Shown here: piece by piece, positions 1,236 to 20,041 of the stretch
Layout: each line of letters begins with the position of its first letter
How positions within the stretch are numbered: position 1 is the first letter of the stretch
From: Bacteroidota bacterium
GTDB lineage: Bacteria; Bacteroidota; Bacteroidia; Palsa-965
Direction: 5' to 3'
Length of the DNA stretch: 63,291 bases
NCBI GenBank assembly: GCA_013298545.1
Contig: JAAFIA010000015.1
Location: forward strand, 1-63,291
Position numbers and translations under genes: made by a program
Notes under the pieces: model-generated
Databases searched by the model: none
Told to the model about the DNA's origin: nothing
The model's input: the letters and a program-made list of their open reading frames with translations, nothing else

Positions 1236-1841
1236 TTACTCTTGTTCTACGGTTCCATTTCCGTCAATCACTTTTGTAACAACTGGATTTCCGGCATAAC
1301 GTACTTTTCCAGAACCAATGATGGTGGCCTTCAACGAATCGGAAACCGCCATGCGTACAAATCCCGACCCCACAATTTCAGTTTCCAAAAAGGCGCACGA
1401 TGAGTTGTTGTGGTTGATTGCGCCATTTCCATTGACTTCAAGTATTAAGCGTGGGAAATGGCAGTTATCGAAACGCATTTGGCAATTGCCGCCTTCGGAG
1501 GCAACTTCGCGCACATCGGGCAAATAGACACGCACTTTGACGTCGCTGTTGATGAATGGATTTTGCCTGTTTGGTGGATGAATAATTAGCGCATCGCCTT
1601 GCAAGGTTGTTGCAATAAAGGGAACAATATTGCTTGAGCCAACGAGTTCGAGTCGCGCTGTATCGCTTTCAAAAATCGTAACATCGCCCGATCCGGTAAG
1701 CAGAATTTTATGAATATCGGCTGTAATGGGGCGTTGCTCGGTAACGATAATTCCGTTGGGAATATAATCTTCTTGCTCGTTGCGGCAACTCGAAGATACC
1801 ATTGCAAAAAGCAACAGCGAAAAGGTGGTGATGCGTTTCAT
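1236..1841 (-). CDS. Head GIN domain (DUF2807) lipoprotein
   Basis: Predicted 201-residue lipoprotein. It has an N-terminal hydrophobic signal ending in a lipobox (SSSC, Cys19), then a beta-rich body with the recurring G-S/N-G elements typical of the DUF2807 'head GIN' family (GSGDV, GNGA, GSGF, GSGKV, GNGTV). These families are predicted beta-helical surface or periplasmic proteins; no enzymatic role is known to me. It is the last gene of a minus-strand run (GxQ-repeat protein, TonB-dependent receptor, this gene), 24 bp downstream of the receptor stop, so co-transcription is likely. A shared terminator with aspS follows. The family call is firm; the function is unknown. Confidence 0.85.
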   Translation of the reverse strand: MKRITTFSLLLFAMVSSSCRNEQEDYIPNGIIVTEQRPITADIHKILLTGSGDVTIFESDTARLELVGSSNIVPFIATTLQGDALIIHPPNRQNPFINSDVKVRVYLPDVREVASEGGNCQMRFDNCHFPRLILEVNGNGAINHNNSSCAFLETEIVGSGFVRMAVSDSLKATIIGSGKVRYAGNPVVTKVIDGNGTVEQE

Positions 1842-1856
1842 TTTTTTTGTGTGTTA

Positions 1857-1873
1857 AGAGCCTGTTTAAAATT
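1857..1873. repeat. Solo copy of a MITE terminal sequence
   Basis: The 16-mer AGAGCCTGTTTAAAAT is identical to the left end of the 165-bp inverted-repeat element at 46916-47080. Here it occurs alone and covers the stop codon of the TonB-dependent receptor gene (TAA at 1866-1868 on the minus strand). No partner end was found nearby. It may be a remnant of an excised or decayed element. Confidence 0.5.
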
Positions 1874-4238
1874 CGATGCGATAATTCAATACAGGAATCA
1901 AAGGTGCTTGATAGTTGTATTTTATTGTATTTGAAGAAGGATCGAAATAGCGGTTAAAAACATTTTTACGATTTGTTGTGTTTTGAATATCGAGCGAAAC
2001 GCGGGTGGTGCATTTTTTGAAATTGCGTTTCAAACTCACGCCCACATCAAGACGCAGGTAATCGGAATTTTTTTCTTGAAATGATTTTGCGGGATCTTTG
2101 TATGTACCACCAAGCGCAATTGACTTTTCAAGATCAATAGGTGTATCATAAAAACCACCGGCCCAGATTAGTTTTGCATTAACGCCAATGACACGACCTT
2201 TTCTTTTCTCGCTGAGTGTATATTCTTTGCCTCCTGTAAACGTAAAATTATATTTTCCGTTGAAGCGTGAATTGCGCCAAACACCATCCAATGCTTTATA
2301 TTTCGATTCGTAAAGCGATGCTGATGCAATCATGTACGAACCACCAGAGAAGAATTTTTCGAGCGTGAGTTCTAGTCCATAATTTTTGCCTGCTCCGGCA
2401 TTCACCAAACTATCGGTGTAAGAACCAGCAATCATGTTGTTTACGGCAAAAGGATCGGTCATGCTATTCTTTACGGCAAGATCTGAAAGCCATTGATAAT
2501 AGGTTTCTGCTTTTATCCGAAAATTTTCGCCAAATGGATGATCGTATGCCAAAACCAAATGGTGCGCTTTTTGAAATTTCAGTTTGGTATTCGGACGAAC
2601 AATTGAGCCATCGGTTAATGTAGCTTGCGCAAAATATGCCGGAAGCGGTAAGTGCTGGCTGTGTAAGCCATAACCAAGACTGATGTTATGAAGTGGTGCC
2701 AATTCCCAACGCACAGCCGCACGTGGCTCGATGCTTGTATTTCCGTTGAGTGCCAAATACAAACTATGAAAACCAGCGTTGATCGTCAACCGTTCTGTGG
2801 GGCGAAATTGCCATTGCGAATAGGCTTGGAGCGTTTGCGTAGTGCCATCTTGTTTTAGGTTTTCTACCAACTGATTTACTTCGGGATCGTAAACGCCTTC
2901 GTATAATGAAAAGCCGAGTTGATTGAAAACGATTCCGCTGCGAATGGTATTTTTTGCATTTAGTTTGGTGGTCAATGTTGCCGAACCGGTTAAGCGTTTG
3001 GTGTCGTTAAATTCGCTGTTTTCTAATCGAAGCGAATAATCGTCTTGGGTGTATTCGCTTTTGTATTTGATGTTTACATCCGAAACTCCGGCAACAATTT
3101 TCAGCAACGATTTTTCACCAAGCTGATTGGTCCACGAAGCACCATTAAAAAGTGTATTGCTTATAAATTTACTGGTATAGCGATCGTCTTCTGATTCCCA
3201 TTCCAGCGAATCTGTTTTCGCCCGATAAGTCTCGCCGCTCAATCCGCCAAATCCAAAAAACGCAAATGTTCCGAATCGTTCTGTTGGCAAGACCACATTG
3301 TACGACAAGTCTTGAAATGTTGTAATGCCCACATCGTCTCCAAAAACGCCAGCTTTACTGAGTAGTCCCAGTGTAGAATATCTATAATTGATGAGATACG
3401 AACCGTTGTGTTTTTTGGAGAGTGGTCCTTCGGCAGCAAAATCAACACCCAAGACTCCTGCTTGAAATGTATATTCTGCTTTTTCGTTATTTCCGGAGCG
3501 CAGCCGCAAATCGAAAACACCCGATGTTGCATTTCCGTATTCAGAAGCAAATGCGCCCGTCATAAAATCTGAATTGGCAAGTAGTTGTGTACTGAGAATA
3601 GAAATACCGCCTCCAGCAGCACCGGGTATTGAAAAGTGGTTTGGATTAGGAATATCAATTCCTTCCATACGCCACAATAAGCCGCTAGGTGCATTGCCAC
3701 GAATGACAATAAAATTATTGCCATCGCTCGCCGTTGATACGCCTGCATAAGCGAGTGCCGCACGTGCAGGGTCGTTTACGGCGGCTGCGAAACGTCGTGT
3801 TTCTTCGACCGAGAACGTGCGGGCACTAACTGTTGACATGGAATTGAGTGGCTTTTTCTTATCGTCTTTGGCGGTAATAACCACTTCATTTGTTTGATTG
3901 ATTTGCTCTTCGAGTTCGATATTCAAAACCAATTCTTTGCCAGAACTTACGTCCACATCGTTGAGCAAAATTTCGCGGTAACCAATCATGTTGATTTTAA
4001 AACTGTGGCGACCGACAGGAATTTCGTTGAGCTTGAATTGTCCATTGATGTCGGTTGCTGTGCCTTTTGGCGGCACGAGGTCTGTAACTGCAACCAATGC
4101 ACCCATGAGTGGCGTTTTAAGTTGCTTATCGACAATTTTCCCGCGTACGGTTTGTGTCCATGTTTGCGCTGGCAGAGCAACACCGAATAAGAAAAGAAGT
4201 AATAAGGTAAGAACTGCTGCAAGTGTGATCGATTTCAT
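1866..4238 (-). CDS. TonB-dependent receptor with carboxypeptidase-regulatory-like N-terminus
   Basis: Outer-membrane active-transport receptor of 790 residues. A signal peptide (hydrophobic about 5-24, ending near PAQ) is followed by a CarboxypepD_reg-like/transthyretin-like domain (about 30-110; VRGKIVD, DINGQF, GYRE). A plug domain comes next (about 120-240; NNFIVIRGNAPSGLLWRMEG), then a long C-terminal beta-barrel ending in F (YRIEF). I chose the ATG at 4238 because the signal peptide begins MKSITL; an in-frame ATG at 4256 would add six residues. There is no STN domain, so it is a transporter and not a FecA-type transducer. It lies 84 bp downstream of the GxQ-repeat protein and 24 bp upstream of the DUF2807 lipoprotein, probably in one operon. 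The substrate cannot be read from sequence. The stop codon lies inside a repeat fragment. Confidence 0.9.
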   Translation of the reverse strand: MKSITLAAVLTLLLLFLFGVALPAQTWTQTVRGKIVDKQLKTPLMGALVAVTDLVPPKGTATDINGQFKLNEIPVGRHSFKINMIGYREILLNDVDVSSGKELVLNIELEEQINQTNEVVITAKDDKKKPLNSMSTVSARTFSVEETRRFAAAVNDPARAALAYAGVSTASDGNNFIVIRGNAPSGLLWRMEGIDIPNPNHFSIPGAAGGGISILSTQLLANSDFMTGAFASEYGNATSGVFDLRLRSGNNEKAEYTFQAGVLGVDFAAEGPLSKKHNGSYLINYRYSTLGLLSKAGVFGDDVGITTFQDLSYNVVLPTERFGTFAFFGFGGLSGETYRAKTDSLEWESEDDRYTSKFISNTLFNGASWTNQLGEKSLLKIVAGVSDVNIKYKSEYTQDDYSLRLENSEFNDTKRLTGSATLTTKLNAKNTIRSGIVFNQLGFSLYEGVYDPEVNQLVENLKQDGTTQTLQAYSQWQFRPTERLTINAGFHSLYLALNGNTSIEPRAAVRWELAPLHNISLGYGLHSQHLPLPAYFAQATLTDGSIVRPNTKLKFQKAHHLVLAYDHPFGENFRIKAETYYQWLSDLAVKNSMTDPFAVNNMIAGSYTDSLVNAGAGKNYGLELTLEKFFSGGSYMIASASLYESKYKALDGVWRNSRFNGKYNFTFTGGKEYTLSEKRKGRVIGVNAKLIWAGGFYDTPIDLEKSIALGGTYKDPAKSFQEKNSDYLRLDVGVSLKRNFKKCTTRVSLDIQNTTNRKNVFNRYFDPSSNTIKYNYQAPLIPVLNYRIEF

Positions 4239-4322
4239 CTGATCGGAAGTAAGCATAGCGTTTTTTTATTTGAATGAAATGGGAGATGAAAATTGTTCGC
4301 AGCAATTTTGTGTTGTGTTTTT

Positions 4323-5414
4323 TTAGAAGAAACGGATGGCAGCACCAAAGCCAAACCAAGCTTTTACATTCCAACGGTTATCATACGTTTGTGTAAATCC
4401 GTAGTATGGTGGAAATTGGTTGACGGGTAATTCTCCTGCTTGGGTACGCACATCATTGACAAAAACGTTGAATGTTGGTCCGGCAGCAATGGATATTTTT
4501 TGGGCGAGATGAAAATCAAATGGTGCTTCGATTTTAATCCATTCGCTGGTACGTGTATTGAATCCGCCGCGGTTGACGTGTGCAGTACTGAGTTCGATGG
4601 CGGCATCCAAACGTTTAGAAATCGACCAAGCAGTTCCAATGCCATAACCGATAGACCAGTATGGATCGCGCGGGCGATAGTCGATACCAACAAGTAAATT
4701 GTTGTGAAATATTTTGCTACCGCTACGAAACGCTGCATTGATGGGCATGGTTTCATTCCATCCCAATTCGAGTTTATGGTAACCATGACGGGCATAACTG
4801 AACACACCAATCATAGCACCCGAAACACTATCAGCAAAATTGAATACTCCAATTTGTACGCCTTTTACATTTCGTGCATAGTTGACAAAGCCACTGATTT
4901 GTGCGCCTTGCACGGTGCCAAAAGCGATGTTGAGTGCTCCGGCGGTTTGAAGGCCACGTACATGTTTCGCGATGTTCACGCTTCCGGCCATTTGAAGTGC
5001 TTCGACGGTTCCGCCGCAAACATTCGCCGTTCCTGAAACTTGTGCGCCATAAATATCGCCACCGGCCATGTTTAATGTTCCTGCAATTTGCGCCCCGCGA
5101 ACTGATTTGGTGGCAATGTTCATGACACCACCAATTTGTGCACCATCAACACTATCCATAGCTAAATTGCCAATGCCTGCCATCTGAAAACCACGCATAT
5201 AACCTGTTGACATATTGAAACAGGCCGAAAGTTGCGATCCGTAAAACCGATTTTGAGCCACATTGGCGATGATCGCCACTTGTGCATTGGTGCTCGAAAC
5301 GCCTAAGATCGAGTAGTTGGCTTGCTGATTTGGATTGGTGAGCAAGGTATCAGGAGTGGCCATCGCGAATGCGCTGATAGCACAAGTGAACGAGAGAAGA
5401 GCTAAACGTTTCAT
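4323..5414 (-). CDS. GxQ-repeat outer-membrane protein without STN domain
   Basis: Protein of 363 residues with a signal peptide (about 1-20). A block of about nine tandem units of 14-16 residues follows (about 72-215) with consensus V-x-G-x-Q-[MIV]-[AS]-G-x-x-N-[IL]. The C-terminal region (about 220-363) looks like beta-barrel strands and ends in RFF. The repeats resemble those of proteins I know as LA_2272-type surface repeat proteins; the fold is unproven but a beta-solenoid fits. It is a clear paralogue of the protein at 7232-9277: the repeats match and so do barrel motifs (IGYGIG, SIAAGPTFN, AIRFF), but it lacks the STN and carboxypeptidase-like domains. The ATG at 5414 was chosen for its signal peptide. 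It is divergent from the sigma gene, with a TAGGGGT motif about 45 bp upstream of the start. Confidence 0.75.
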   Translation of the reverse strand: MKRLALLSFTCAISAFAMATPDTLLTNPNQQANYSILGVSSTNAQVAIIANVAQNRFYGSQLSACFNMSTGYMRGFQMAGIGNLAMDSVDGAQIGGVMNIATKSVRGAQIAGTLNMAGGDIYGAQVSGTANVCGGTVEALQMAGSVNIAKHVRGLQTAGALNIAFGTVQGAQISGFVNYARNVKGVQIGVFNFADSVSGAMIGVFSYARHGYHKLELGWNETMPINAAFRSGSKIFHNNLLVGIDYRPRDPYWSIGYGIGTAWSISKRLDAAIELSTAHVNRGGFNTRTSEWIKIEAPFDFHLAQKISIAAGPTFNVFVNDVRTQAGELPVNQFPPYYGFTQTYDNRWNVKAWFGFGAAIRFF

Positions 5415-5458
5415 GTTTTTGATGTTGTTTGCTCTCATGACCAGCTAAAAGGGGATTC

Positions 5459-5485
5459 ACCCCTACGCCAGTTGAAAATATTTTT
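5459..5485 (-). promoter_or_regulatory. Candidate ECF-sigma promoter for the GxQ-repeat/TBDT operon
   Basis: On the minus strand TAGGGGT (5459-5465) is preceded by an A/T-rich stretch (AAAAATATTTT). The same arrangement occurs on the plus strand before the sigma gene. I infer a shared promoter or operator class, and I recall that similar GGGGT elements often precede FecI-type genes in Bacteroidota. The GGGG also pairs with CCCC in a 5-bp hairpin (5450-5464). Confidence 0.45.
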
Positions 5486-5512
5486 GTTTTTCTTCTTTTC
5501 AGGAAGTTTTTT

Positions 5513-5539
5513 AAAAATTTTAAGGAAGGGCATAGGGGT
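5513..5539 (+). promoter_or_regulatory. Candidate ECF-sigma promoter for the sigma/FecR/STN operon
   Basis: TAGGGGT (5533-5539) is preceded at about 20 bp by AAAAATTTT, mirroring the minus-strand element at 5459-5485. It lies 107 bp upstream of the preferred sigma start (5647) and 14 bp upstream of an alternative ATG (5554). It is compatible with autoregulation by the encoded sigma factor; this is inference from motif repetition only. Confidence 0.45.
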
Positions 5540-5646
5540 ATCTGTATTTTAATATGTCTTCTAAGTACATGAACTTGCTGCGAACACCTGTTTCATCGGA
5601 TTCAAGTCCGACTTATCTTTACCGCTCCGGACAGGATTTGAATCGT

Positions 5647-6237
5647 ATGGAAACAGAACAAGAATGGATTGCTGCCATCCGCAAAGGCGACGAACAGGCG
5701 TTTGAACGCATGTTTCGCGCATACCATGCGGCTTTGTGTAGGCATGCTGTACGTTTGCTCGAAGATGCAGAAGATGCAGAGGAAGCGGTACAGCAGGTTT
5801 TTTTGAAAATATGGGAGCGTCGCGAGGCTTTTGAGATTACAGTTGCTTTAAAAGCATATTTGTATCGCGCGGTTCACAATGCTGGTCTGAACATGATTGA
5901 ACGAAAAAAACGTGAACGCAACCACCAACAAGCAGAATTGCATGTGGTTCATCGCTCAGAAGATGCTGTTCCAGAAATGCGTCGTAAGGAATTGGAAACG
6001 GCTATTCAGCAAGCCATTCAAACCTTGCCCGAACAATGTCGGCGCGTTTTTGAATTGAGTCGTTTTGAAGAATTGAAATACCGCGAGATTGCCGATACGT
6101 TGGGTATTTCCATCAAAACAGTCGAAAATCAAATGGGTAAGGCCCTGCGTTTGTTGCGCGAGCGGCTCGCTCCTTTTCTATCGGTGTTTGGCGTTTTAAC
6201 TATTCACGAATTGCTTAACCTCTTTTTTCACTCATGA
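5647..6237 (+). CDS. ECF-type RNA polymerase sigma factor (FecI-like, Bacteroidota group)
   Basis: Sigma factor of 196 residues that would direct RNA polymerase to a small regulon. Region 2 is seen at about 18-85 (FERMFRAYHAALCRHAVRLL, then VFLKIWERRE) and region 4 with its helix-turn-helix at about 115-170 (LPEQCRRVFELSRFE, then YREIADTLGISIKTVENQMGKAL). I prefer the ATG at 5647 (METEQEW) because it gives the usual family length; an in-frame ATG at 5554 would add 31 low-complexity residues. The stop overlaps the anti-sigma start (ATGA), so the two are translationally coupled. The partner is the FecR-like protein immediately downstream. Likely targets are its own promoter and the divergent operon, both bearing TAGGGGT. 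Confidence 0.92.
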   Translation: METEQEWIAAIRKGDEQAFERMFRAYHAALCRHAVRLLEDAEDAEEAVQQVFLKIWERREAFEITVALKAYLYRAVHNAGLNMIERKKRERNHQQAELHVVHRSEDAVPEMRRKELETAIQQAIQTLPEQCRRVFELSRFEELKYREIADTLGISIKTVENQMGKALRLLRERLAPFLSVFGVLTIHELLNLFFHS

Positions 6238-7226
6238 ACGTTTCTGAAGAAAACACCATCGATACCTTGCTTGCGCGCTACCTCGCAAACGAGTGTGATA
6301 CGTCGGAAAAATTGCAGGCGGAAGCATGGATTGCGGCATCGCCCGAAAATAAATTATACTTCGATGGTTTACATCAAATTTGGAACGATGCTTCGGAAAC
6401 GGATGCTTCGCATTTCAATACGGATGCGGCTTGGAATCGGTTGCAAAGTAGTATGCACGGAAATACGGCTTCTGCCAATACGTTTGCATTGTGGAAAGTT
6501 GCGGCTTCCGTTGCGGCATTTTTAATAATCGGAGTTCTGACTTATACACTTATTAAAGATGATGTTGTCGAAATTCCACAAGTGGCTTTTTCGACTACGG
6601 ATAAAATTCAAAATGGTATTTTGCCCGATGGTAGCAAAATTGCATTGAATGTCCATTCGCAACTTAATTATCCAAAATCATTTGATGGAAATACGCGTGA
6701 GGTTGAATTGAAAGGGCAAGCGTTTTTTGATGTGGCGCATGATGCTACGCATCCATTCATCATTCACACGAATGCAATTGATATTCGTGTTGTTGGAACG
6801 TCGTTTGATGTAAAAGCCTATCCCAATTCGGATAGCGCGTTGGTGAGTGTGGTTTCTGGAAAAGTAAAATGTTATACGGGAACAGACACAACGGTTTTAA
6901 CGGCTGGACAACAAATCGTTTTCAGAAAAAGCAAAAAAGAATTTGTTAGCCCAGAAACGGTTGTTGACAATACACAATCTTGGCGCACACGTTTGTTTAA
7001 GTTTGATCGCAAGCCGCTTGCTGATGCGTTGCGCGAAATTGCTGTCTCTTTTCAAGTGAAGATCAACGTTCCAGAAGGATTAAATAAGTGTTTACTAACA
7101 CTCGATTACGACACCAATCTGCAAACGGTTGAAGAAGTGCTTGACCTCATCCAAGAATCGTATCCGACAACACATTGGAACCGACAGGGCGATGTGATTA
7201 TCTTTGAAGGTGAGGCTTGTCCGTAA
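6234..7226 (+). CDS. FecR-family anti-sigma factor
   Basis: Inner-membrane anti-sigma factor of 330 residues. The N-terminal cytoplasmic part (1-80; YLANECDTSEKLQAEAWI) binds the sigma factor in this family. One transmembrane helix follows (about 88-108, ending VLTYTLI), then a periplasmic FecR domain (about 120-215; LPDGSKIALN, VELKGQAFFDVAHD, VVGTSFDVKAY) and a C-terminal DUF4974/STN-like domain (about 255-325; KFDRKPLADALREIA). In FecI/FecR systems the periplasmic part contacts the STN domain of an outer-membrane transducer. Here the next gene supplies an STN domain, but on a non-TonB-receptor protein. It overlaps the sigma gene by 4 bp, and the next gene's ATG lies 5 bp after its stop. 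Confidence 0.93.
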   Translation: MNVSEENTIDTLLARYLANECDTSEKLQAEAWIAASPENKLYFDGLHQIWNDASETDASHFNTDAAWNRLQSSMHGNTASANTFALWKVAASVAAFLIIGVLTYTLIKDDVVEIPQVAFSTTDKIQNGILPDGSKIALNVHSQLNYPKSFDGNTREVELKGQAFFDVAHDATHPFIIHTNAIDIRVVGTSFDVKAYPNSDSALVSVVSGKVKCYTGTDTTVLTAGQQIVFRKSKKEFVSPETVVDNTQSWRTRLFKFDRKPLADALREIAVSFQVKINVPEGLNKCLLTLDYDTNLQTVEEVLDLIQESYPTTHWNRQGDVIIFEGEACP

Positions 7227-7231
7227 ACTGT

Positions 7232-9277
7232 ATGCTGCTGCGCATTTTTATTTTCTTTTTTTGTTTTTTGAGCTTGCATGGTGCGGCACAAACTTCTACA
7301 CCTCCAACGGAACGTATGGTCTCGGTTGTTTGTGTGAATCGTTCGGCTTCCGAAGTATTGAACGATTTATCGCAACAGGCAAAATTTTTCTGGTCGTACG
7401 ATTCGCGTTTGGTTGATCCGAAAAAATTGGTTACGCTGAACGAAAAAAACATTACGGTTCGTCGTGCGATTGCGTTAATTTTTGATGGTAAAATTTCATG
7501 TCGTTCGAAGGGGAATCATTGTATTTTATCGGCCACGCCTGAACCACTTGCAGATGATGTGGTTTCGCCTCCACGCAAATTGACTTATACGGTTGGTGGC
7601 TACATTACGGATATAGAAACGGGCAATCGGATTCCATATACAACGGTTTACGATAGCATCAGTTTGCATTCGGCATTGAGTGATGAGTGGGGGTTTTATC
7701 AATTGGAACTGGATGCTTCGCGCACGCCGGTGAAATTAAAATCGAGTCGTTTGAATTATTACGATACGTCGTTTGTGGTTGTTCCATCGGCCAATAAAAC
7801 GGTTGACATTCAAATGCGCGCGATTCCGAAGCAAACGATTACGCGTGCTGAAATTCGGAAATTACCGAGCGATACAGGGAATGCGTTTGGGCGTATTGAT
7901 TCGGTTCAAGTAGCGGATTATAAAAAATCGCGTCGTGGTTTGGATCGTTTTCCGTGGGTCGATTCGCTGGCTGGTTTTGAGCAGGCAATGCGTTCGCGCA
8001 ATTTGAAAGAGACGTTGCAAAGTGGTGGACAGGTTTCGTTGTTGCCTTTTATTTCAACGAATGGCCGGTTGAGTGGTAGTGTAGTGAATAAATTTTCGTT
8101 GAATATTATTGCGGGTTATGCGGGTGGTGTTGATGGATTTGAGGTGGGTGGTGCTGCGAATATTGTGCGTGGAGATGTGCGTGGGGCGCAGGTTGCGGGG
8201 GCGGTGAATTTGGTGGGGGGCAATGTGCGGGGGGCGCAGCTTGCGGGCTTGCTCAATTTGAATGTTGGGACGTTGCGTGGGGTGCAATTGAGTGGTGGTG
8301 CAAACATCAACATGGACAGCTTGCGCGGGATTCAGGTGGCGGGTGGATCGAATTTTAATTTTGGAAGTATGTATGGCATTCAAGTGGCGGGTGGTTCGAA
8401 TTTTGTGAAAGGGGATGTGGATGGTTTGCAAGTGGCGGCTACGGCGAATGTTACGTTTGGTACAGTCAATAAAGTGCAGGTGGCGGGTTGGGGAAATTAT
8501 GCGCGGGGGGTGCGGGGCATTCAGGTTTCTGGGAGTGTAAATATTGCGCGTGAAATGATGGAGGGTTTGCAAGTGAGTGGTTTTCTAAATCGTGCGGGGC
8601 ATGTGCGGGGGTTTCAGGTTTCGGGTTTTATAAACAGTTGTAGAGATACAACAACCGGTGTACAAATTGCTGCGTTTCTCAATGCCGCTGGGCGTTTGTC
8701 GGGCTACCAGTTTGGTAGTGTCAATGTGGCGCGTGAGCTGAATGGGTTGCAAATTGGGATCATTAATATAACGCAACAAAAAAACGATGGGTTGCAAATA
8801 GGCTTGTTTTGCTTCGCTCGCAATGGGTTGCATCAGGTGGAATTGGCTTGTACTGAAAATTTATTTACGACGATTTCTTTTAAAACAGGTTCTACCGATT
8901 TCTACAACATTTTTACTGCGGGTCAAGGAAAATTCATCGGCGAAGATGGTGTATGGACAATTGGTTATGGCTTAGGTCATCGGTTTAAATTACCTTATGC
9001 TTTAGCCGTCGATTTGGAAGCGGTAACCAATCAGGTTAGTCGTGAGGCTCTTTCGTTATATACAAACAACTGGACATTCTTATACATGGGTTTGAGTTGG
9101 GTTCCGCTCCAAACATTTTCTGTTTCTGTTGGGCCTACGTTCAATTATTTTGTTTCGGGATCGAATGCAGATTATTTTTCCGTTTGGCATCCCAAACCTT
9201 TGCTCGAAAAAACATTTGAAACGGGAACACGGGGTAGTGGATGGATTGGTCTGCGTTGTGCAGTTCGCTTTTTTTAA
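7232..9277 (+). CDS. STN-domain GxQ-repeat outer-membrane protein, putative sensor
   Basis: Protein of 681 residues. Order of parts: signal peptide (1-20, ending GAAQ); STN-like (secretin/TonB short N-terminal) domain at about 30-100 (ASEVLNDLSQQAKFFWSYD, VRRAIALIF); CarboxypepD-regulatory-like domain at about 118-200 (VGGYITDIETGNRIPYTTV, WGFYQLEL); a linker; about 15 tandem 14-16-residue GxQ units at about 300-540 (GAQVAGAVN, GLQVSGFLN); and a C-terminal barrel-like part (about 545-681, ending VRFF). No plug domain or TonB-dependent barrel is seen. The position straight after sigma and anti-sigma suggests it signals to the FecR-like protein through the STN domain. The ATG at 7232 gives the signal peptide; a TTG at 7217 lies inside fecR. 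The repeat DNA is unusually G-rich. Domain calls are good, the sensor role is inference. Confidence 0.8.
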   Translation: MLLRIFIFFFCFLSLHGAAQTSTPPTERMVSVVCVNRSASEVLNDLSQQAKFFWSYDSRLVDPKKLVTLNEKNITVRRAIALIFDGKISCRSKGNHCILSATPEPLADDVVSPPRKLTYTVGGYITDIETGNRIPYTTVYDSISLHSALSDEWGFYQLELDASRTPVKLKSSRLNYYDTSFVVVPSANKTVDIQMRAIPKQTITRAEIRKLPSDTGNAFGRIDSVQVADYKKSRRGLDRFPWVDSLAGFEQAMRSRNLKETLQSGGQVSLLPFISTNGRLSGSVVNKFSLNIIAGYAGGVDGFEVGGAANIVRGDVRGAQVAGAVNLVGGNVRGAQLAGLLNLNVGTLRGVQLSGGANINMDSLRGIQVAGGSNFNFGSMYGIQVAGGSNFVKGDVDGLQVAATANVTFGTVNKVQVAGWGNYARGVRGIQVSGSVNIAREMMEGLQVSGFLNRAGHVRGFQVSGFINSCRDTTTGVQIAAFLNAAGRLSGYQFGSVNVARELNGLQIGIINITQQKNDGLQIGLFCFARNGLHQVELACTENLFTTISFKTGSTDFYNIFTAGQGKFIGEDGVWTIGYGLGHRFKLPYALAVDLEAVTNQVSREALSLYTNNWTFLYMGLSWVPLQTFSVSVGPTFNYFVSGSNADYFSVWHPKPLLEKTFETGTRGSGWIGLRCAVRFF

Positions 9278-9299
9278 GTTTTTAGGTGGATTGATTTTC

Positions 9300-9307
9300 T
9301 ATATTTG
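9300..9307 (+). promoter_or_regulatory. Possible -7 box TATATTTG
   Basis: Matches the Bacteroidota -7 consensus TAnnTTTG and ends only 3 bp before the ATG at 9311. A transcript from it would be almost leaderless. No convincing -33 element was seen, so it is tentative. Confidence 0.35.
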
Positions 9308-9310
9308 AGC

Positions 9311-9940
9311 ATGAAAAAATTCCTTTTCCTCTGCGTAATTTTATCTCCTGCATTTTTATCGGCTCAGTTTATCGAGCGTGGCGATAAAATCATTGCTGCT
9401 CATGGCGCATTTGGTTTGTATAAATATCAGTTTACCGATAAAGCAAATAACCTCGTCGATCCTCGCGATACGAGTGCGGGGTTTAACGTTCCAGTGAGTT
9501 TTGAGTATGGTTTGTTTTCGTGGCTGAGTGGTGCTGCGCATTTCAACTATGTGAATTACATTGAAGGAGATAGTGCACGGGACGAGCGTTCGCGAGGCAT
9601 TGATGCACAATTGGGCATCAATCTGCATGTGCCGTGGAAGTGGCAGCGTTTTGATCTTTGTGCGGGGATTGCGTATGGGTTTTCTAATTTCAATTATACG
9701 TTTAAAGACAATGGGAATGAGTCGGTTGCTAAAGCGAATGGCAGTGCGCTTTCGTTTTCTGTTAATCCACGTTTTTATTTCAGCAGCGAAAAGCATTTGG
9801 GTATGAGTTTTCTCTATCGCAGGACCAATTATTTGTACAAGAATGGTAATGTCTCGTATTCCAATTCGAGTTTAAATTTTCCTTTTAAGTTGGAAGGGCC
9901 GGGTAGCACCTTTGGACTTGGTTTGTTTTACCGCATTTAA
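9311..9940 (+). CDS. Small outer-membrane beta-barrel protein
   Basis: Protein of 209 residues with a cleavable signal peptide (MKKFLFL, ending SAQ at about 17-19). Alternating hydrophobic/aromatic strands follow, such as GINLHVPWKWQRFDLCAGIAYG and GSTFGLGLFYRI, with a C-terminal aromatic-x-I typical of outer-membrane barrels. I do not recognise a specific family. It starts 33 bp after the STN GxQ protein, so it may be the fourth gene of the sigma operon, though a TATATTTG box just before the ATG could provide an independent start. An upstream in-frame TTG (9305) is not needed for the signal peptide. Confidence 0.7.
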   Translation: MKKFLFLCVILSPAFLSAQFIERGDKIIAAHGAFGLYKYQFTDKANNLVDPRDTSAGFNVPVSFEYGLFSWLSGAAHFNYVNYIEGDSARDERSRGIDAQLGINLHVPWKWQRFDLCAGIAYGFSNFNYTFKDNGNESVAKANGSALSFSVNPRFYFSSEKHLGMSFLYRRTNYLYKNGNVSYSNSSLNFPFKLEGPGSTFGLGLFYRI

Positions 9941-12132: not shown

Positions 12133-15100
12133 TTACTGCGCCAATGTAAATTGCAAACTAATTCCGGCATTGGTATTCGCTGTTTTAAACGAAGACGAAA
12201 TGAGCGGCGCTGTCTGCACACGATCGCAGAAGAAACGAACATTCAAGCGATCGTTGAGGCGGTAATCTGCCGATGTTTTGATCGAGAAAATATTTTGTCC
12301 GGCAGTGAGTACGTTAATTTCTTCTACACTCTTACGGATAACCGTTTGGTTGCTGCGGTAAGAGAAATCGGCGCGTAAATTCAGATCGCTCTTCGGTGCT
12401 TTGCCGCGCATGATTTTCTTCAAGAATTTTGCTTCAAGACCAGGAACGCGATAGCCAAGACCAATGGTGAGTTCGCGGCCAGAAACTTCGGTCATTTGTG
12501 TATTGGCCAAGCTCAAGCTCAACATGCGATCACGCTTGTATTCAATGCGTGTCATCAAGCTGTTTTGCCAAGTCATGTCAATGCCAATCAGCGGACTAAA
12601 TTGTTCTGAAATCGTAACGGTATTGATCAAATACTTGCTTTCAAAATCGCCAACGGTATTACGAATATTATCAGAGAATCCATCGCCGTCAATATCGGTG
12701 AAGTTGAGGTTCGTATTGAAACCACCAAGCGCATACGTTGAACGGTAGGCATGATTGAGCGAGAACGTTTTGAAGTGTTTCTTCATCTTGTTGTACTTGG
12801 TCAATCCGTCGTATTTGATGCTCCAGTTTGGAAGCGGGATGGCTGGGAACAAATTGGTTGAAGCACTCTCAGCACGTTTGCCTTGATATGCGGCAAGGAA
12901 TGCCGGAATCAACACTTCTTGCGATGTTTTGCTATATCCATCAAAGAAACCATCAACACCTTGACCAGCAGAATTTGGATTATCCACGCCAAGTTTATTG
13001 GAAAGAATTGCGCGGTTGTTGAGGAATTGCTGGAAGACTTCCGAGAAGTGGTCTTTTGTATCGCGCTTGAATGCTGTGCTCCACGTGATGATGGTCATAC
13101 TGAATGCGCCCGTTTCAGTTGGCGACTCAATTACATACTGTTGTAAGGCGTCGTTCCAGCGGAAGAATTCACTCTTATTGAGCGAGTATGTGCGGTTTGC
13201 ATTCAACTCAATACGCAAATCAGGGAATGGTTCTAACGTTGCACGAACCGTCATGTTTTTCGCATTGCCGCGGGTGAATGGTGTAAACAGCGATTGCGTT
13301 TGAACCAACCAATTTTGCTGCGACGCATAAATCGGGAACTCAGTACGATCTGGTCCGAATCCAGTTTGTTTGCCAAATAAGTAACCAAAACCTGGTCCTT
13401 CAAACTGGTTATCAAATCCGAGGATGCGGGTGTTTCGCGCATATCCAGGAAGTGCCATCGTTGAATTGTCTGAGTAGTTGACCGAAATTGTACGCACACT
13501 CATCACCAAACGCGCGAGGTATTCGCCAATGACAAACGTATCGTCTTTTTTGGCTTTCGCAGAATCTTCTTTGGTTTTCGGTTGTTCTGCAGAAGGTCGT
13601 GTTTGTGTATTTCCAACACGGCCTTTGGTATCTCCGCCCGGTCGTTTCTGATTGACTTTTTTGAAGTACGGTACTTTATTGTACAACGTAGTCATATTTA
13701 ACTGACCCGTGTATTGCCATTGTGCGCTGTTGCCTATGGTGTTCCCAACGGTATCGGCAGAAAGTGGTGCGCGCTGCCAGTTAAATCCGGTATTGTAACG
13801 CACACTTGCTGTTACCCAATCAAAGACTGGAATTTTATTGATTGGGATATTGTAGTTGAGACTCGTTTGGTGGTGGTAATTCATGTTTGTACCAAAGGCG
13901 CGCACATTTTCCCAGATCGAATCGCGTTCGAGTTTGGTATCAATGCGTCCTTCTGGCTCCAGGATACGCGACTCATTATCGGCGTTAAATTCGAGTTTGA
14001 GGTTTTTGGTTAAATCCCAACGCAAATCGTAATTGCGCATCCACACAAAATTCTTGTTGTAGTTGGTTGGCACAATGATGTCGGAGAAGCCTGTAATGTT
14101 TCGGCCTTTCACTTCGCTGTAAGAGCGGTTGAGATCGGTTGTCATGCCAAACATATTGGGTGCAGGCATGAAATTAATATCGCGCACTAGCGTCATCCAT
14201 TTTGATTTAGCCCATTTGGCTTTCTCGAATGGTTTGATTGGTTTCAACTGACTGCTGTATGTGTAAGCCAAGCCGCCACGGTAATTGCGAATGACATTGA
14301 ATTCCGTATTGACATTGTGTTTATACACTTCTGTAAACGCATAGCTTGCCGAGAAATTTTCAATATCCCAGAAGTATTGTTTCTTCTTGCCTTTCGCGCG
14401 TTCCTTGTGTACGTTGGTCATGTTGAAACTTTTCCTTCGCGTATAATCAACCGTGGAACCACGTATCGAATCGCGCACTTCTTGCGAAAGATTTTCATCG
14501 CTCAAAACGGGCCGCAATAAAATATCGGGATCAAGCGGATTAAATTGTGGTGTAATGAATGTTTCGCCAAAGCCCCAGAACAGTGGCAAACGGATTCCAG
14601 TTTTTTCGGAGAAAAATTTACCCATTTCCAATTGTGCCGAAACATCGTAATTCATTTGTGTTTCGCGCAAGCGCTCACTTACTTTTTTCTCAATACTTCC
14701 GAAACCAGGCGTTGCCATATTTCCAGAAACGTTAACGACACCGAAATCAGCGAGTTTTGCGCTGACGCGAGCCGTTGCAGCCCATCCGCCTTCTTCGTCA
14801 AAATCAGTCAAACGCAATTCGTTAAACCAAACTTCGGTGCATTTGGTTGCGCCATCGTCGTTTGGTGTTGCACTGGTACGTTTTGGATTACGCACACCGA
14901 GCATGATGACGCGGATGCTACTCAAATTCGGATTTCCTTTTACGGTTACAAAACGTCCAGGATGATCGGGATCTTCAACCGTAAATTCCTGTGTGAGCGC
15001 AATATTGCCTTGTGCTTGCGCGATGTTGCGTTGTTGTTTGATGCGTTGCAACAATTCAAACGAAAGTTCAAGGTTGTTGCCAACAGGCCAAACTTTTTCG

Positions 15101-18100
15101 CGGTCGGTCTGATCGTTTGGTGAATAGTTTCCGGCAGGTGTTACTTCCATCGGAACTTCGTATTCATAATAGTTGTCGGTGTAATCAGAACCAATACGAA
15201 CGAAGTAGCGCAAATCGCCGTTGTTGAGAGGTTCGTTTGTTCCCGTTCCTGCTTCGGCATGTACAAACATGCGCATCTTTTTATACGAACGCACATCAAG
15301 TGTTCCTGTTGTTTTAAACGCTGCGCGCGAATCGCCATCTTCCAGTCCGCAGACGCGCATGGAAAGTGATTGTTCGTTTAAGCGAACGAGTGTTGCGCTT
15401 TGTACGTTTTGTTCGCGGTCGATTCCTGGAGGAAGAATGTAATTTACAGGAACACGGTTTCCGTTTTCCTCAACGTTGACTGCCGCAACAGTAAATGCTG
15501 TTCCGCTCTGATCGTTAGAAATATATTCGCCCGGATGCAAGAGCGAGTATTGATAACGGCGCCAATCGCTACGCACCAATTCCATACGCGCAAAACGACA
15601 AACAACAGGTTTATCCACATCGCGGAAATACATACGAATGAAACGGATGGAGTTGAAGTTTTCAATGTTTCCAACTTTCTGATCGTAGCTGCGCACAGGC
15701 ACACGGAACTGGTACCAAGTAACCGGACGCGAACGGCCATCTTTCGTCGTTACGTTTGTGGTGTAAACATCGGTGATGTAGTTGTTTCCGATGTTGTTTG
15801 GATTGATGTCTTGCGGCGTAACTTTAATTTTGTACAGGTAATAACTCTCGTTTTCGTTGAGTGTATTATCGCGGTTGATGTCTTCCTGATTGGGAAGTGT
15901 TGTAGATTGTGTTGGGTACGATTCGCTTTGTCCGTCGTCGTTTGGTTCTCCGGTTGCAGGAGAGTTTCCGTCGAGGCCATTAAACATTTTATAGCGCTCT
16001 AAAACGGGTTTGCTCACGGCATCGTAATCTGTTCCGCGGAAATAGTGGAAGTTGTCGCCAGCAGGGTCTTTGATGGCGTTTGCATACGCTTGCGATCCGG
16101 TTCCGTATGCGGCAGCAATATTGGTTAAGTATTGTGAGAAGAAATTTGTTTCGTCTTCATCGCCGAGACCATCTAAACCAACGTCTTGTTTTTTGCGCTT
16201 TTCAGGATCGTTGTCGAATGCGTTGACGATGGACTGAACCACAGGAACACGCCCCCATGGTGTCTCGTCAACAAGTGTTGGCGGATCTTCGGTTGGTAAT
16301 CCATTTTCAAAACTATTGCGCGAGTCTTTCAATACATCCTCCGAAATATTTCCGAGGTTGATGACGAGTTCGCCTGTTGTATTTGGCAATGCATTGTCTT
16401 CGTTGAATGGATCCATCATCCAGAATTGGATGTACTCGATGTTTGATGCTTCGAAATCGTTGGTCTGAATTTGACGCATGATACCGCCCCAACGCGAAGC
16501 TGGATCATTCAAAAATCCGTTGGCATCCAATCCGGCAGAAAATGCGGTTGGGTTGACATCAAAATTATACGGCCCGCGTTCGTTTGGATAGTAGGCCAAA
16601 TCGAGCATGGAGATGTTGAGCGGTTGGCCGTTTGGTGGCTGTTTGTTTGGAAATACTTCGGTCTCCAATACTTCGCGCACAAAGTGGTTGGATTGATCGG
16701 CGAGTGATAAATGGTCTGGACGAAGGTTGTTATCAGGACGCAAAAACAAAGGATCGATGACATACCAAGCGAGTTTCGCGCGGTTGAATCCAGAAGGCAA
16801 ACTGTCTTGTGCCGCTTCGGGGAAAAGCGCGTTTTGTCCTTGCGGAACAGAGGCCAGCGACCAACCTTGCGGTGAACGAATATCGATTGCCGATTGTGTG
16901 CCTTCGAAATCGTCGAGGTAGGAATTTCCGTTTTTACCAATGACTTTGTTGTGGCCGGGAACGAGGTAAGCAAATTCGCCTTGTGCCGTGATGGACGATG
17001 GTACTTTGGTTTCGATGAGTGGTAATTTATCGACCCAACGGGTGAGGAATGGTGCGTCGGTGCGGTAATTGACATCAAAGCCCCATATCGTATTGCTCAT
17101 TGGCTCGTCACCGATATTGATTTTTTGGGTGATCGGACGTTCGGTCAAATTCATCACAGTTGCGCCAATTCCGAAATCGCGGTTCACGCGGTAATCGAAA
17201 TGCGTTCCGAAAAGTGTCTTGGATTGAATGGCAAAAAGTGAATTACTCTCCAACGAAACTTTAATGGGCACACCCGAATTGAGAATGCTTTCGTTGATGA
17301 TTTTGACACGACCAAGTGTGTAGTCAACCGTATAATCTTGGTTCTCGGTAAGTGGTGCGCCGCCCGCAGTAACGCTTACAGAGCCTTGCGGAATATTGAC
17401 TGCGTTGAGCGAAATTTCTGAACTGGATGAGGACTTGTATTGTCCTTTGAGTTTGAATCGGTTTTTTCCGGCAAAGGTGGTTTGTGCAATGGTTTTGGTA
17501 GAGTCGTAAAGTTGCGGGTAGCAATACTTTGTAATCAAATCAGGATTACCATTGAATTGGCGTTCGAGAAAACTTCCGAATGGTTCGGCAACCGGAAAAA
17601 TAATTCTACCGTTGGCCGGATTGATGGTTACGCCATCGATGAAGTCGAACGTTCCGTCGGGTTGTGCTTGTTGCTGTTGGTTGAGTTTATCGAGGTTTAA
17701 AACTTGAACGAGTGGTTTGCCGTTGATTGGTCCTTCGGGAATAAATGGAATGTCTGTACCGGTTGAAATGTTGTTGTACCAAACATCGAGTTTAAAATCT
17801 TGTGGATTGACTTGATACGCGCCAATGGCGTAGATGTTTTTCATCATCAAGTCCCACAATTTGAATCGAGTGGTTCCGGTAATGCGCGGCACGTTGTTCG
17901 TACTCTTGAGCAATTTAACAATCAAGGCGTCTTGTCCATTGACACCATCGGTAGAAAATTCGCCAACTTGATACACTTGGTTGTTTAAAGTGTATTGATA
18001 CGCAACACCTAAAACTTCGTCGTAGTTGAGTGCTTGGTTGAGAGAAATGTACCCTAAGCGTGGATTGAACACATACTCGGTTGATTGGAGTTTGCGCGCA

Positions 18101-19428
18101 TTGGCAACGCGTTCGTAGTTGACGGCGGCACTGAAGTTAAAGTTTGTTTGAAGTGTTTGAAAGGTTGTTGAAAGCGGAACGTTGATGTCGCGCACTTGTG
18201 GGTACGAGGTTGTGAGTTGCTGGTACAAGTCGTTGCGATCATTATCGGGATAGTAGGGAGTATTGTTGTTCAGACTGATAAATCCAGTACCAACCAATTC
18301 GAGATCGGATTCACCAAGGTCGGTGAAGGCAACAATGTTTCGGGTATTGTCAACAGCGCCATTGCGGTTGGTTACCCAAACTTCGACGCGTGTTACGTTG
18401 ATACCGGAATTGATGACGGGGAAATTAGCGAGTGCGGTATCGTAGCGTTGCTGGTGATATTGGCCTAAGAAAAAGTGTTTGTTTGCTTCGTAGTTGTCGG
18501 CTTGCACTTCAAACTTGCTGAGTTGTGCGCCGCCTTGTACGTTGACTTCCGATTTTTTACCGCGTTGTTGCGAGATAACACTGGTCATGGTGAGGCGACC
18601 AAACTGCATCTGTGTCTTAATCCCGAAGAGTGTTTGCGATCCGGTGATGAGTGATGTGTTCAAGCCAAAGTTGACGTTACCGGCTTCAATTTTTTTGATG
18701 ATTTCGTCTTCAAATCCGGTGTATTCGAGTTTCATTTGATTCTCGAAATCGAACGTAGATTCGGTATTGTAGTTGGTGGTGAGTTTTAATTTTTCACCGA
18801 TTTTTCCGACAACGTTCAACTGAATTTTTTCGTCGAAGTCGAAGGTTGAAATGCGGCGTTGGCGTTCGGGGAGGGCAGGATTATCGGTGCGATTGATGTT
18901 GACACCAAAGATCAATTCGGCAGATCCTTGAGGACGAATATCGATTGTACCGCCACCAAAAATGCGGTCGAAACCTTCGCTGTTAATTTTGATGGGAGGA
19001 ATTAATCCTTTTCCACCGGCTTGGTTTTGACTTTCGGCATGAATGCGTTGTTTCCAATAATCGCGAACGGCTTTTTTGCGTTCGTACTCGACATATTCTT
19101 CAAAGGTTAAATAGCTCGGTGGGCGGTAGTCGAGGTTGCCCATTTTCTGTTCAACTTCGTAGGTATTGGAATCGGGGTTATAGGTAATGGTTGTTTTAAA
19201 ATTTGAGGGGTCGTTGAGTTTGAGCGGGCCGTTGTTGGAATAGTGCAACGGATCGAGTGCTGATTGATCTTGAAACTGGTAAGGAAGTTGTGTGGTATCG
19301 CCAGGCGTATCGAGTGCAGAAATGATGCGCGGGGCGGCCATGCGTGCGTTGCTGTCTTTGCTCACAATAGAAGCAAAGAGCGCAACGGAGGCGATTCCAA
19401 CAAGTGTATATTTTAATAGCGGTCTCAA
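12133..19428 (-). CDS. sprA: SprA, type IX secretion system outer-membrane translocon
   Basis: Giant outer-membrane protein of about 2431 residues, the normal size for SprA/Sov (about 2300-2500). It forms the very large beta-barrel channel of the T9SS and is also needed for gliding in Flavobacterium. A hydrophobic N-terminal segment (LLKYTLVGIASVALFAS) is followed by the SprA signature region (YLTFEEYVEYERKKAVRDYW; FGGGTIDIRPQGSAEL; TFDFENQMKLEYTG), then thousands of bases of barrel strands ending GISLQFTLAQ. No ATG fits: upstream in-frame ATGs lie inside ruvA, so I take the TTG at 19428 (LRPLLKYT), 25 bp after the ruvA stop. The start is uncertain. It is third gene of maeB-ruvA-sprA. T9SS cargo is present at 45271-46814. 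Confidence 0.95.
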   Translation of the reverse strand: MRPLLKYTLVGIASVALFASIVSKDSNARMAAPRIISALDTPGDTTQLPYQFQDQSALDPLHYSNNGPLKLNDPSNFKTTITYNPDSNTYEVEQKMGNLDYRPPSYLTFEEYVEYERKKAVRDYWKQRIHAESQNQAGGKGLIPPIKINSEGFDRIFGGGTIDIRPQGSAELIFGVNINRTDNPALPERQRRISTFDFDEKIQLNVVGKIGEKLKLTTNYNTESTFDFENQMKLEYTGFEDEIIKKIEAGNVNFGLNTSLITGSQTLFGIKTQMQFGRLTMTSVISQQRGKKSEVNVQGGAQLSKFEVQADNYEANKHFFLGQYHQQRYDTALANFPVINSGINVTRVEVWVTNRNGAVDNTRNIVAFTDLGESDLELVGTGFISLNNNTPYYPDNDRNDLYQQLTTSYPQVRDINVPLSTTFQTLQTNFNFSAAVNYERVANARKLQSTEYVFNPRLGYISLNQALNYDEVLGVAYQYTLNNQVYQVGEFSTDGVNGQDALIVKLLKSTNNVPRITGTTRFKLWDLMMKNIYAIGAYQVNPQDFKLDVWYNNISTGTDIPFIPEGPINGKPLVQVLNLDKLNQQQQAQPDGTFDFIDGVTINPANGRIIFPVAEPFGSFLERQFNGNPDLITKYCYPQLYDSTKTIAQTTFAGKNRFKLKGQYKSSSSSEISLNAVNIPQGSVSVTAGGAPLTENQDYTVDYTLGRVKIINESILNSGVPIKVSLESNSLFAIQSKTLFGTHFDYRVNRDFGIGATVMNLTERPITQKINIGDEPMSNTIWGFDVNYRTDAPFLTRWVDKLPLIETKVPSSITAQGEFAYLVPGHNKVIGKNGNSYLDDFEGTQSAIDIRSPQGWSLASVPQGQNALFPEAAQDSLPSGFNRAKLAWYVIDPLFLRPDNNLRPDHLSLADQSNHFVREVLETEVFPNKQPPNGQPLNISMLDLAYYPNERGPYNFDVNPTAFSAGLDANGFLNDPASRWGGIMRQIQTNDFEASNIEYIQFWMMDPFNEDNALPNTTGELVINLGNISEDVLKDSRNSFENGLPTEDPPTLVDETPWGRVPVVQSIVNAFDNDPEKRKKQDVGLDGLGDEDETNFFSQYLTNIAAAYGTGSQAYANAIKDPAGDNFHYFRGTDYDAVSKPVLERYKMFNGLDGNSPATGEPNDDGQSESYPTQSTTLPNQEDINRDNTLNENESYYLYKIKVTPQDINPNNIGNNYITDVYTTNVTTKDGRSRPVTWYQFRVPVRSYDQKVGNIENFNSIRFIRMYFRDVDKPVVCRFARMELVRSDWRRYQYSLLHPGEYISNDQSGTAFTVAAVNVEENGNRVPVNYILPPGIDREQNVQSATLVRLNEQSLSMRVCGLEDGDSRAAFKTTGTLDVRSYKKMRMFVHAEAGTGTNEPLNNGDLRYFVRIGSDYTDNYYEYEVPMEVTPAGNYSPNDQTDREKVWPVGNNLELSFELLQRIKQQRNIAQAQGNIALTQEFTVEDPDHPGRFVTVKGNPNLSSIRVIMLGVRNPKRTSATPNDDGATKCTEVWFNELRLTDFDEEGGWAATARVSAKLADFGVVNVSGNMATPGFGSIEKKVSERLRETQMNYDVSAQLEMGKFFSEKTGIRLPLFWGFGETFITPQFNPLDPDILLRPVLSDENLSQEVRDSIRGSTVDYTRRKSFNMTNVHKERAKGKKKQYFWDIENFSASYAFTEVYKHNVNTEFNVIRNYRGGLAYTYSSQLKPIKPFEKAKWAKSKWMTLVRDINFMPAPNMFGMTTDLNRSYSEVKGRNITGFSDIIVPTNYNKNFVWMRNYDLRWDLTKNLKLEFNADNESRILEPEGRIDTKLERDSIWENVRAFGTNMNYHHQTSLNYNIPINKIPVFDWVTASVRYNTGFNWQRAPLSADTVGNTIGNSAQWQYTGQLNMTTLYNKVPYFKKVNQKRPGGDTKGRVGNTQTRPSAEQPKTKEDSAKAKKDDTFVIGEYLARLVMSVRTISVNYSDNSTMALPGYARNTRILGFDNQFEGPGFGYLFGKQTGFGPDRTEFPIYASQQNWLVQTQSLFTPFTRGNAKNMTVRATLEPFPDLRIELNANRTYSLNKSEFFRWNDALQQYVIESPTETGAFSMTIITWSTAFKRDTKDHFSEVFQQFLNNRAILSNKLGVDNPNSAGQGVDGFFDGYSKTSQEVLIPAFLAAYQGKRAESASTNLFPAIPLPNWSIKYDGLTKYNKMKKHFKTFSLNHAYRSTYALGGFNTNLNFTDIDGDGFSDNIRNTVGDFESKYLINTVTISEQFSPLIGIDMTWQNSLMTRIEYKRDRMLSLSLANTQMTEVSGRELTIGLGYRVPGLEAKFLKKIMRGKAPKSDLNLRADFSYRSNQTVIRKSVEEINVLTAGQNIFSIKTSADYRLNDRLNVRFFCDRVQTAPLISSSFKTANTNAGISLQFTLAQ

Positions 19429-19453
19429 CGTAATTATTGCTTTGGGGTGATGA

Positions 19454-20041
19454 TCAGAGATTCTTGAGTGCGAGTTTAATGAGGTGTTCGACAGAAACCA
19501 CATTGCCTTCTGTTTTGAGGGCTTTGTCAACTGCTTTTTCGGCGGCTTGGCGGGCAAAGCCAAGCATAACGAGTGCGGTTAACGCTTCTTCGTGCATTTT
19601 ATTGTTTGCGGCAAAAACAGTTGCTGGCATTTCGCCAAAATCTTTGCCCAATTTGCCTTTGAGGTCAACGATGATGCGTTGTGCCGATTTTTCGCCAATG
19701 CCTTTCACGCCTTTGAGTACAGCCACATTTCCGGTTTGTATTGCACCCCGAATTTCGGTTGGATTCATTGACGAGAGAATCATGCGGGCCGTGCTTGGTC
19801 CAACACCTGAAACAGAAATCAATTGACGAAATAAATCGCGTTCTTCTTCGTCGGCAAAGCCAAACAAGACGTGTGCGTCTTCGCGGATAGAAAGGTGAGC
19901 GAGTAAGCGGCAACGTTCTTGATCGCCGATTTTAGAATAGGTATGCAACGAAATATTGAGCAGGTAGCCCACCCCACCACAGTCAATGACTGCGTAGGTT
20001 GGTGTTTTCTCTGTCAGTTTTCCGTCGATGTGGTTAATCAT
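19454..20041 (-). CDS. ruvA: Holliday junction branch-migration protein RuvA
   Basis: DNA-binding subunit of the RuvAB branch-migration motor, 195 residues, full length. The N-terminal OB domain starts MINHIDGKLTEKTPTYAVIDCGGVGY, two helix-hairpin-helix elements follow (LISVSGVGPSTARMIL; LKGVKGIGEKSAQRIIVDLKGKL), and domain III ends the protein (EEALTALVMLGF). It starts 8 bp after the maeB stop and is followed by sprA after 25 bp, so the three are probably co-transcribed. Its partner ruvB lies separately at 23849-24889. Confidence 0.98.
   Translation of the reverse strand: MINHIDGKLTEKTPTYAVIDCGGVGYLLNISLHTYSKIGDQERCRLLAHLSIREDAHVLFGFADEEERDLFRQLISVSGVGPSTARMILSSMNPTEIRGAIQTGNVAVLKGVKGIGEKSAQRIIVDLKGKLGKDFGEMPATVFAANNKMHEEALTALVMLGFARQAAEKAVDKALKTEGNVVSVEHLIKLALKNL

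Follow-up and report, generated by a model that had tools for sequence, protein, structure and literature searches.

Gene content and transducer architecture

The stretch of DNA analysed here (the window; 63,291 bp, contig JAAFIA010000015.1 of the Bacteroidota bacterium assembly GCA_013298545.1) encodes an extracytoplasmic function (ECF) sigma factor, a FecR-type anti-sigma factor and an outer-membrane (OM) protein, here termed the transducer, in which an STN signalling domain is joined to a GxQ-repeat solenoid and a small beta-barrel. The sigma gene (5647–6237, + strand; TIGR02985 subfamily, E 7e-50), for which the position of the predicted promoter (5533–5560) sets the start at ATG 5647, overlaps by 4 bp the FecR gene (6234–7226, +), the product of which comprises a cytoplasmic anti-sigma domain (ASD), a transmembrane helix, a FecR domain (PF04773, E 1.7e-17) and an STN-like FecR_C subdomain (E 3e-7), with a GT motif at G188–T189. 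The transducer gene (7232–9277, +) begins at an ATG 5 bp past the FecR stop, and profiles together with an AlphaFold2 (AF2) model resolve its product into a signal peptide, STN, a carboxypeptidase-regulatory-like domain (CPD), a helical linker, a GxQ beta-solenoid and an 8-stranded OM barrel, without a plug. Profile searches placed each of these genes, in this order, where a preliminary description of the DNA had proposed them, and did the same for three genes that it had assigned to the divergent side: a second GxQ protein without STN or CPD (GxQ2; 4323–5414, − strand), for which ATG 5414 is the most likely start rather than 5438, to which the open reading frame (ORF) extends; a TonB-dependent receptor with CPD, weak plug (E 2.9e-4, below the gathering score) and barrel, lacking STN (1866–4256, −); and a head-GIN/Toastrack (DUF2807) lipoprotein (1236–1841, −; E 8e-18).

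The AF2 model of the transducer, built with 59 sequences (the window protein and orthologues from related loci), has a mean predicted local distance difference test (pLDDT) score of 89.2 and runs from STN (residues 29–101) through CPD (117–199) and the helical linker into 16-residue coils that continue to about residue 530, followed by eight long strands ending in the C-terminal phenylalanine. Assignment of the STN domain (7316–7534, +) draws on individual PF07660 matches in 43 of the 59 orthologues (best 1.2e-9), on a match between a profile of the transducer STN segment and the PilQ N-domain in the PDB (E 0.03), and on a Foldseek match to 9cuv, the signalling domain of PupB (E 0.084, TMt 0.60), all in keeping with the STN fold that had been proposed for the third gene; a PDB sequence search with the whole transducer as query returned no match. 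The CPD (7580–7828, +) is recognised as CarbopepD_reg_2 in all 59 orthologues and aligns with the carboxypeptidase D and SusC NTE domains (Z 12–13). Plug was not matched in the window transducer and is absent among the seven families listed for the 59 orthologues.

The solenoid (residues about 262–530; 8018–8821, +) matches the NCBIfam model NF047436 (LA_2272_repeat) just over its curated cut-off (25.8 versus 25 bits; GxQ2, 32.5), with 10 repeats fitting a strict regular expression at the 16-residue period and about 15 coils in the AF2 model; a fold search found no close match, left-handed helices such as GlmU aligning only at a root mean square deviation (rmsd) of 9–12. The barrel that follows (residues 531–681; 8822–9274, +) is OmpA/OprF/NspA-like, with 123 residues aligned to OprF at Z 13.5 (rmsd 3.3) and 133 to NspA at Z 13.1 (rmsd 3.0); the earlier account of about 15 GxQ repeats and a barrel end, with neither plug nor TonB barrel, agrees with the model. 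Loops between strands measure 4, 7, 9 and 24 residues on the outer side, matching or exceeding in length the turns of 4, 3 and 5 on the inner side; given these lengths, and an even-stranded barrel with a C-terminal beta-signal and both ends periplasmic, the solenoid should sit in the periplasm, despite the 'surface repeat' label of the family, and the 8-stranded barrel should, from the model, be too narrow for transport. The AF2 model of GxQ2 shows the same solenoid and 8-stranded barrel without STN and CPD (mean pLDDT 87.3). A BamP match on the TonB-dependent receptor (E 0.003; 16.9 versus a cut-off of 230 bits) was rejected, as it covers the shared CPD region.

Conservation of the module and relation to known systems

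Related loci were sought among 118 relatives and 84,980 species genomes, the latter yielding 155 relatives of which 80 were kept, including Chitinophaga, Algoriphagus, Pedobacter, Flavobacterium, Marinifilum and many metagenome-assembled genomes, and their neighbourhoods were scored with profiles built in this analysis. FecR lies directly upstream of the transducer in 74 of the 79 loci with an intact transducer gene, preceded by sigma in 71, which bears out the expected co-occurrence of these genes across genomes; cases lacking an upstream sigma–FecR pair comprise, among others, loci cut off by a contig end and three from Chitinophaga in which a small outer-membrane protein (OMP) gene stands in its place. 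Among 55 fully flanked loci (at least 5.5 kb on each side), sigma–FecR is present in 52, a related TonB receptor in 31, a second GxQ protein in 26 and head-GIN in 14, and a class-wide survey of 395 genomes found a transducer match at E 1e-15 in 148, many of the matches being close to full length and the rest partial. In the three Chitinophaga loci (L086, L090 and L095) the upstream gene encodes a small secreted or OMP-like protein of 198–202 aa, resembling the promoter-bearing OMP of another locus (L178), and the partner FecR may lie elsewhere. The transducer is split into two ORFs beside sigma–FecR in L056 (G067; 7197–8168, 6250–7113) and L126, through decay or sequencing error. Repeat numbers of transducer and paralogue correlate (rho 0.51 when repeats are counted, 0.31 from length), but phylogeny confounds the comparison, which was left unused.

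Within its own genome (4.5 Mb, 97% complete) the FecR of the window is the sole representative, and of 24 matches to the sigma family the window sigma alone exceeds the family cut-off. A search of this genome with the profile of the transducer STN segment recovered the window transducer only, and no STN-bearing TonB transducer able to serve the window FecR was detected there; since the one further STN protein identified is a secretin, the sole FecR would pair with the transducer. A GT-x-F/V motif, predictive of self-cleavage, is present in all 103 FecRs examined, and the genome encodes a homologue of site-2 proteases (S2P). The FecR (6234–7226) also has a weak match to NCBIfam NF047528 (LIMLP_03685 anti-sigma); in Leptospira, FecR-like anti-sigma factors (LIC_12756/12757) occur as well as LA_2272 repeats (PMC12155086).

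With the FecIRA, FoxIRA and PupIRB systems the locus shares its ECF sigma factor, a FecR that carries the GT motif and ends in an STN-like subdomain, an OM protein with N-terminal STN, and a predicted autoregulated promoter. A defining feature of FecIRA, a TonB-dependent transducer with plug and 22-stranded transport barrel, was looked for and is absent; the OM partner instead carries CPD, a solenoid of 16-residue repeats and an 8-stranded barrel, and uptake in the window falls to a different protein, the receptor that lacks STN. The system probably works like FecIRA, yet is not a standard member. SusC-type receptors with STN under ECF sigma/anti-sigma control are described for the Bacteroidota (PMC7782687); these likewise combine STN with a CPD/NTE-type domain beside sigma/FecR, as in CPD/Plug/STN examples from two loci (L043, L045), but keep the plug and TonB barrel that are both lost here.

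Two further loci encode plug-less STN-CPD proteins without GxQ directly after sigma–FecR (L041:4252-5832, L042:6364-7947), representing a second type of plug-less STN partner; the STN-CPD front end is the same, whereas the C-terminal part, a domain with a TTFYRE motif, does not look like a barrel, and their sigma genes lack the promoter motif. Plug-less STN partners are therefore a broader theme. The NF047436 LA_2272 surface-repeat family shares the GxQ repeats, both window proteins scoring above its curated cut-off, but the model is silent on signalling, while here the repeats stand between STN-CPD and barrel and are predicted to be periplasmic.

A predicted promoter common to the module and linked envelope genes

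The upstream regions of 96 sigma genes share the motif ATAGGGGTA-N14-TGTCnTA; GGGG-N16-TGTC occurs in 53 of them, with none expected from shuffles and a spacer invariant at 16 bp. When a weight matrix trained on those 53 sigma-upstream sites only was run over every locus, 158 sites scored above 15 bits and 124 above 22 bits; reversed sequence yielded 5 and 0, respectively. At the 16-bp spacer there were 153 hits versus 5 in the control, spacers of 14, 15, 17 and 18 bp being near control, and the distance from promoter to start codon is typically 45–52 bp. Outside the training set, the promoter stands upstream of GxQ paralogues (30/51), TonB receptors (30/54) and head-GIN genes (9/20). It precedes sigma in 58 of 99 loci or, where it follows sigma, FecR in 18 of 100, from which the sigma factor is computationally predicted to control the operon of its OM partner; the transducer, an internal gene, is never preceded by it (0/99), and other ORFs rarely (4/1046).

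Genome-wide exact searches place the motif before unlinked head-GIN and small-OMP genes as well, and in L178 divergent head-GIN and OMP genes each carry the promoter. The exact motif was found in 15 of 26 genomes with the module versus 4 of 92 without it (Fisher p 5e-9), and in none of four genomes with conventional STN receptors and FecR (G057, G068, G083, G116); across the phylum, few exact hits fall outside module-bearing families, about equal to the backward control. The motif at 2 mismatches is not enriched in the window's own genome (25 versus 48 in the control), and no genome-wide regulon is therefore claimed for it. Two strong promoter-like sites in that genome, L164 (G000:C114:22545) and L147 (G000:C119:25109), score 26.3 and 27.7 bits with CGTC/GGTC at −10; of the genes downstream, one encodes a secreted protein with a type IX secretion system (T9SS) sorting tail (41 bp) and one an Fe/Mn superoxide dismutase (96 bp).

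The best-scoring site of the window, TAGGGGTA-N14-TGTC-TT (5533–5560, +; 22.6 bits), is the predicted ECF promoter of the sigma operon. On the opposite strand, GTAGGGGTGAATCCCCTTTTAGCTGGTCATG lies 49 bp before ATG 5414 and scores 19.4 bits at a 17-bp spacer, the next best there reaching 7.3; the variant promoter of the divergent operon reads GTAGGGGTGA...GGTC (5435–5466, −). This arrangement suggests a divergent double promoter, driving sigma–FecR–transducer rightward and, from the suggestive left site, GxQ2–receptor–GIN leftward. Judged by its promoters, the sigma factor very probably activates a group of OM protein genes, among them that of the paralogue of its own sensor, and the shared promoter thereby lends direct sequence support to the control of envelope proteins, paralogue included, that had been proposed.

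Candidate signalling mechanism and alternatives

The preliminary description had suggested a cell-surface signalling system in which a repeat solenoid and barrel replace the TonB-dependent transducer. The conserved sigma–FecR–transducer order, the domain order and the promoter that the sigma operon has in common with the genes for the GxQ paralogue, TonB receptor and head-GIN protein support that proposal, and the locus is, with a probability of just under 0.8, a FecI–FecR type signalling system with a non-transporting OM transducer. Binding of the STN of an OM receptor to an STN-like FecR subdomain has been reviewed for FecA/FecR and PupB/PupR (PMC9249621), and in FoxA/FoxR a contact of this type protects the anti-sigma factor from proteolysis until a signal arrives, FoxR self-cleaving at its GT site (PMC11637429). 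By analogy, the 8-stranded barrel would anchor the transducer in the outer membrane, with solenoid, CPD and STN hanging into the periplasm, where the STN would pair with FecR at its STN-like C-terminal subdomain and guard the anti-sigma factor. A change of state in barrel or solenoid, whether through a surface or periplasmic ligand or through failed barrel assembly, would alter this contact; FecR, cut at its GT site, would be degraded and processed by the S2P protease, and the freed sigma factor would transcribe its own operon and a regulon of GxQ paralogue, TonB receptor, head-GIN lipoprotein and small barrels. The system may respond to a ligand, to a cue passed on by the linked TonB receptor, or to the state of barrel assembly.

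Several observations weigh against this reading. The Pfam STN match of the window transducer itself is weak (E 0.038, below the Pfam cut-off); the loci were found via the transducer, making the co-occurrence figures conditional on it, and a few represent the same genome in two collections (e.g. L034/L130, L047/L066); L086, L090 and L095 have a transducer without adjacent sigma/FecR; in about 40% of loci no motif can be recognised upstream of sigma; and the divergent site of the window is non-canonical (17-bp spacer, GGTC), such spacing showing no enrichment in other places.

In another reading, the transport and signalling functions of FecA would be divided between two proteins, the linked TonB-dependent receptor being the true ligand receptor and the STN-GxQ protein a relay docking on it. 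In its favour, the receptor has CPD but no STN, bears the same promoter and is linked in 31 of the 55 fully flanked loci; we regard this reading as doubtful, however, as 24 of the 55 have no receptor nearby, the transducer possesses its own barrel, and receptor genes can stand apart with a separate GxQ partner (L053). A sensor of OM assembly or stress, in which failed insertion or retention of the 8-stranded barrel pulls STN off FecR to give a sigmaE-like response, would suit a barrel without a transport pore and a predicted regulon that combines OM proteins with head-GIN of Toastrack type, a group (with DUF2807 among its members) tied to phage shock protein (PSP) envelope stress (PMC11237479). 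No chaperone, protease or barrel assembly machinery (BAM) genes were found among the promoter-bearing genes, however, and a TonB receptor in the regulon would fit nutrient uptake equally well, leaving this alternative tentative and somewhat unlikely. At a similar, speculative level stands a Bacteroidota-wide envelope surveillance, in which barrel and periplasmic solenoid would report the state of the outer membrane or of barrel assembly via STN to FecR, acting on a ATAGGGGTA-N14-TGTC regulon of OM proteins; if true, the phylum would gain a sigmaE-like response built from FecIR parts. That an ordinary FecI/FecR pair, common as these are in Bacteroidota, lies by chance beside unrelated OM proteins is extremely improbable, being already contradicted by conservation (order kept in 71/79 relatives) and the specific shared promoter, with a single FecR in the genome.

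Within the FecIR paradigm, a FecI–FecR system with a non-transporting transducer would uncouple signalling from TonB transport, placing STN on a protein without transport pore that is conserved across many Bacteroidota families. The LA_2272-type repeats, an unnamed family, would acquire a likely function and a FecI-like sigma factor a predicted promoter code, with a regulon, open to testing, that joins head-GIN lipoproteins and small barrels to a TonB receptor. A prior characterisation of the architecture had been named as a ground for refuting the proposal; within the open-access library searched, no description of the regulon or of a GxQ protein bearing STN was found.

A gene for a small beta-barrel OMP (PF13505; 9311–9940, +) lies 33 bp downstream of the transducer as a possible operon member, its linkage to the module not being conserved in the relatives examined. 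Further along the window, a 2476-aa ORF (12133–19563, −) presumably resembles the T9SS/gliding protein SprA.

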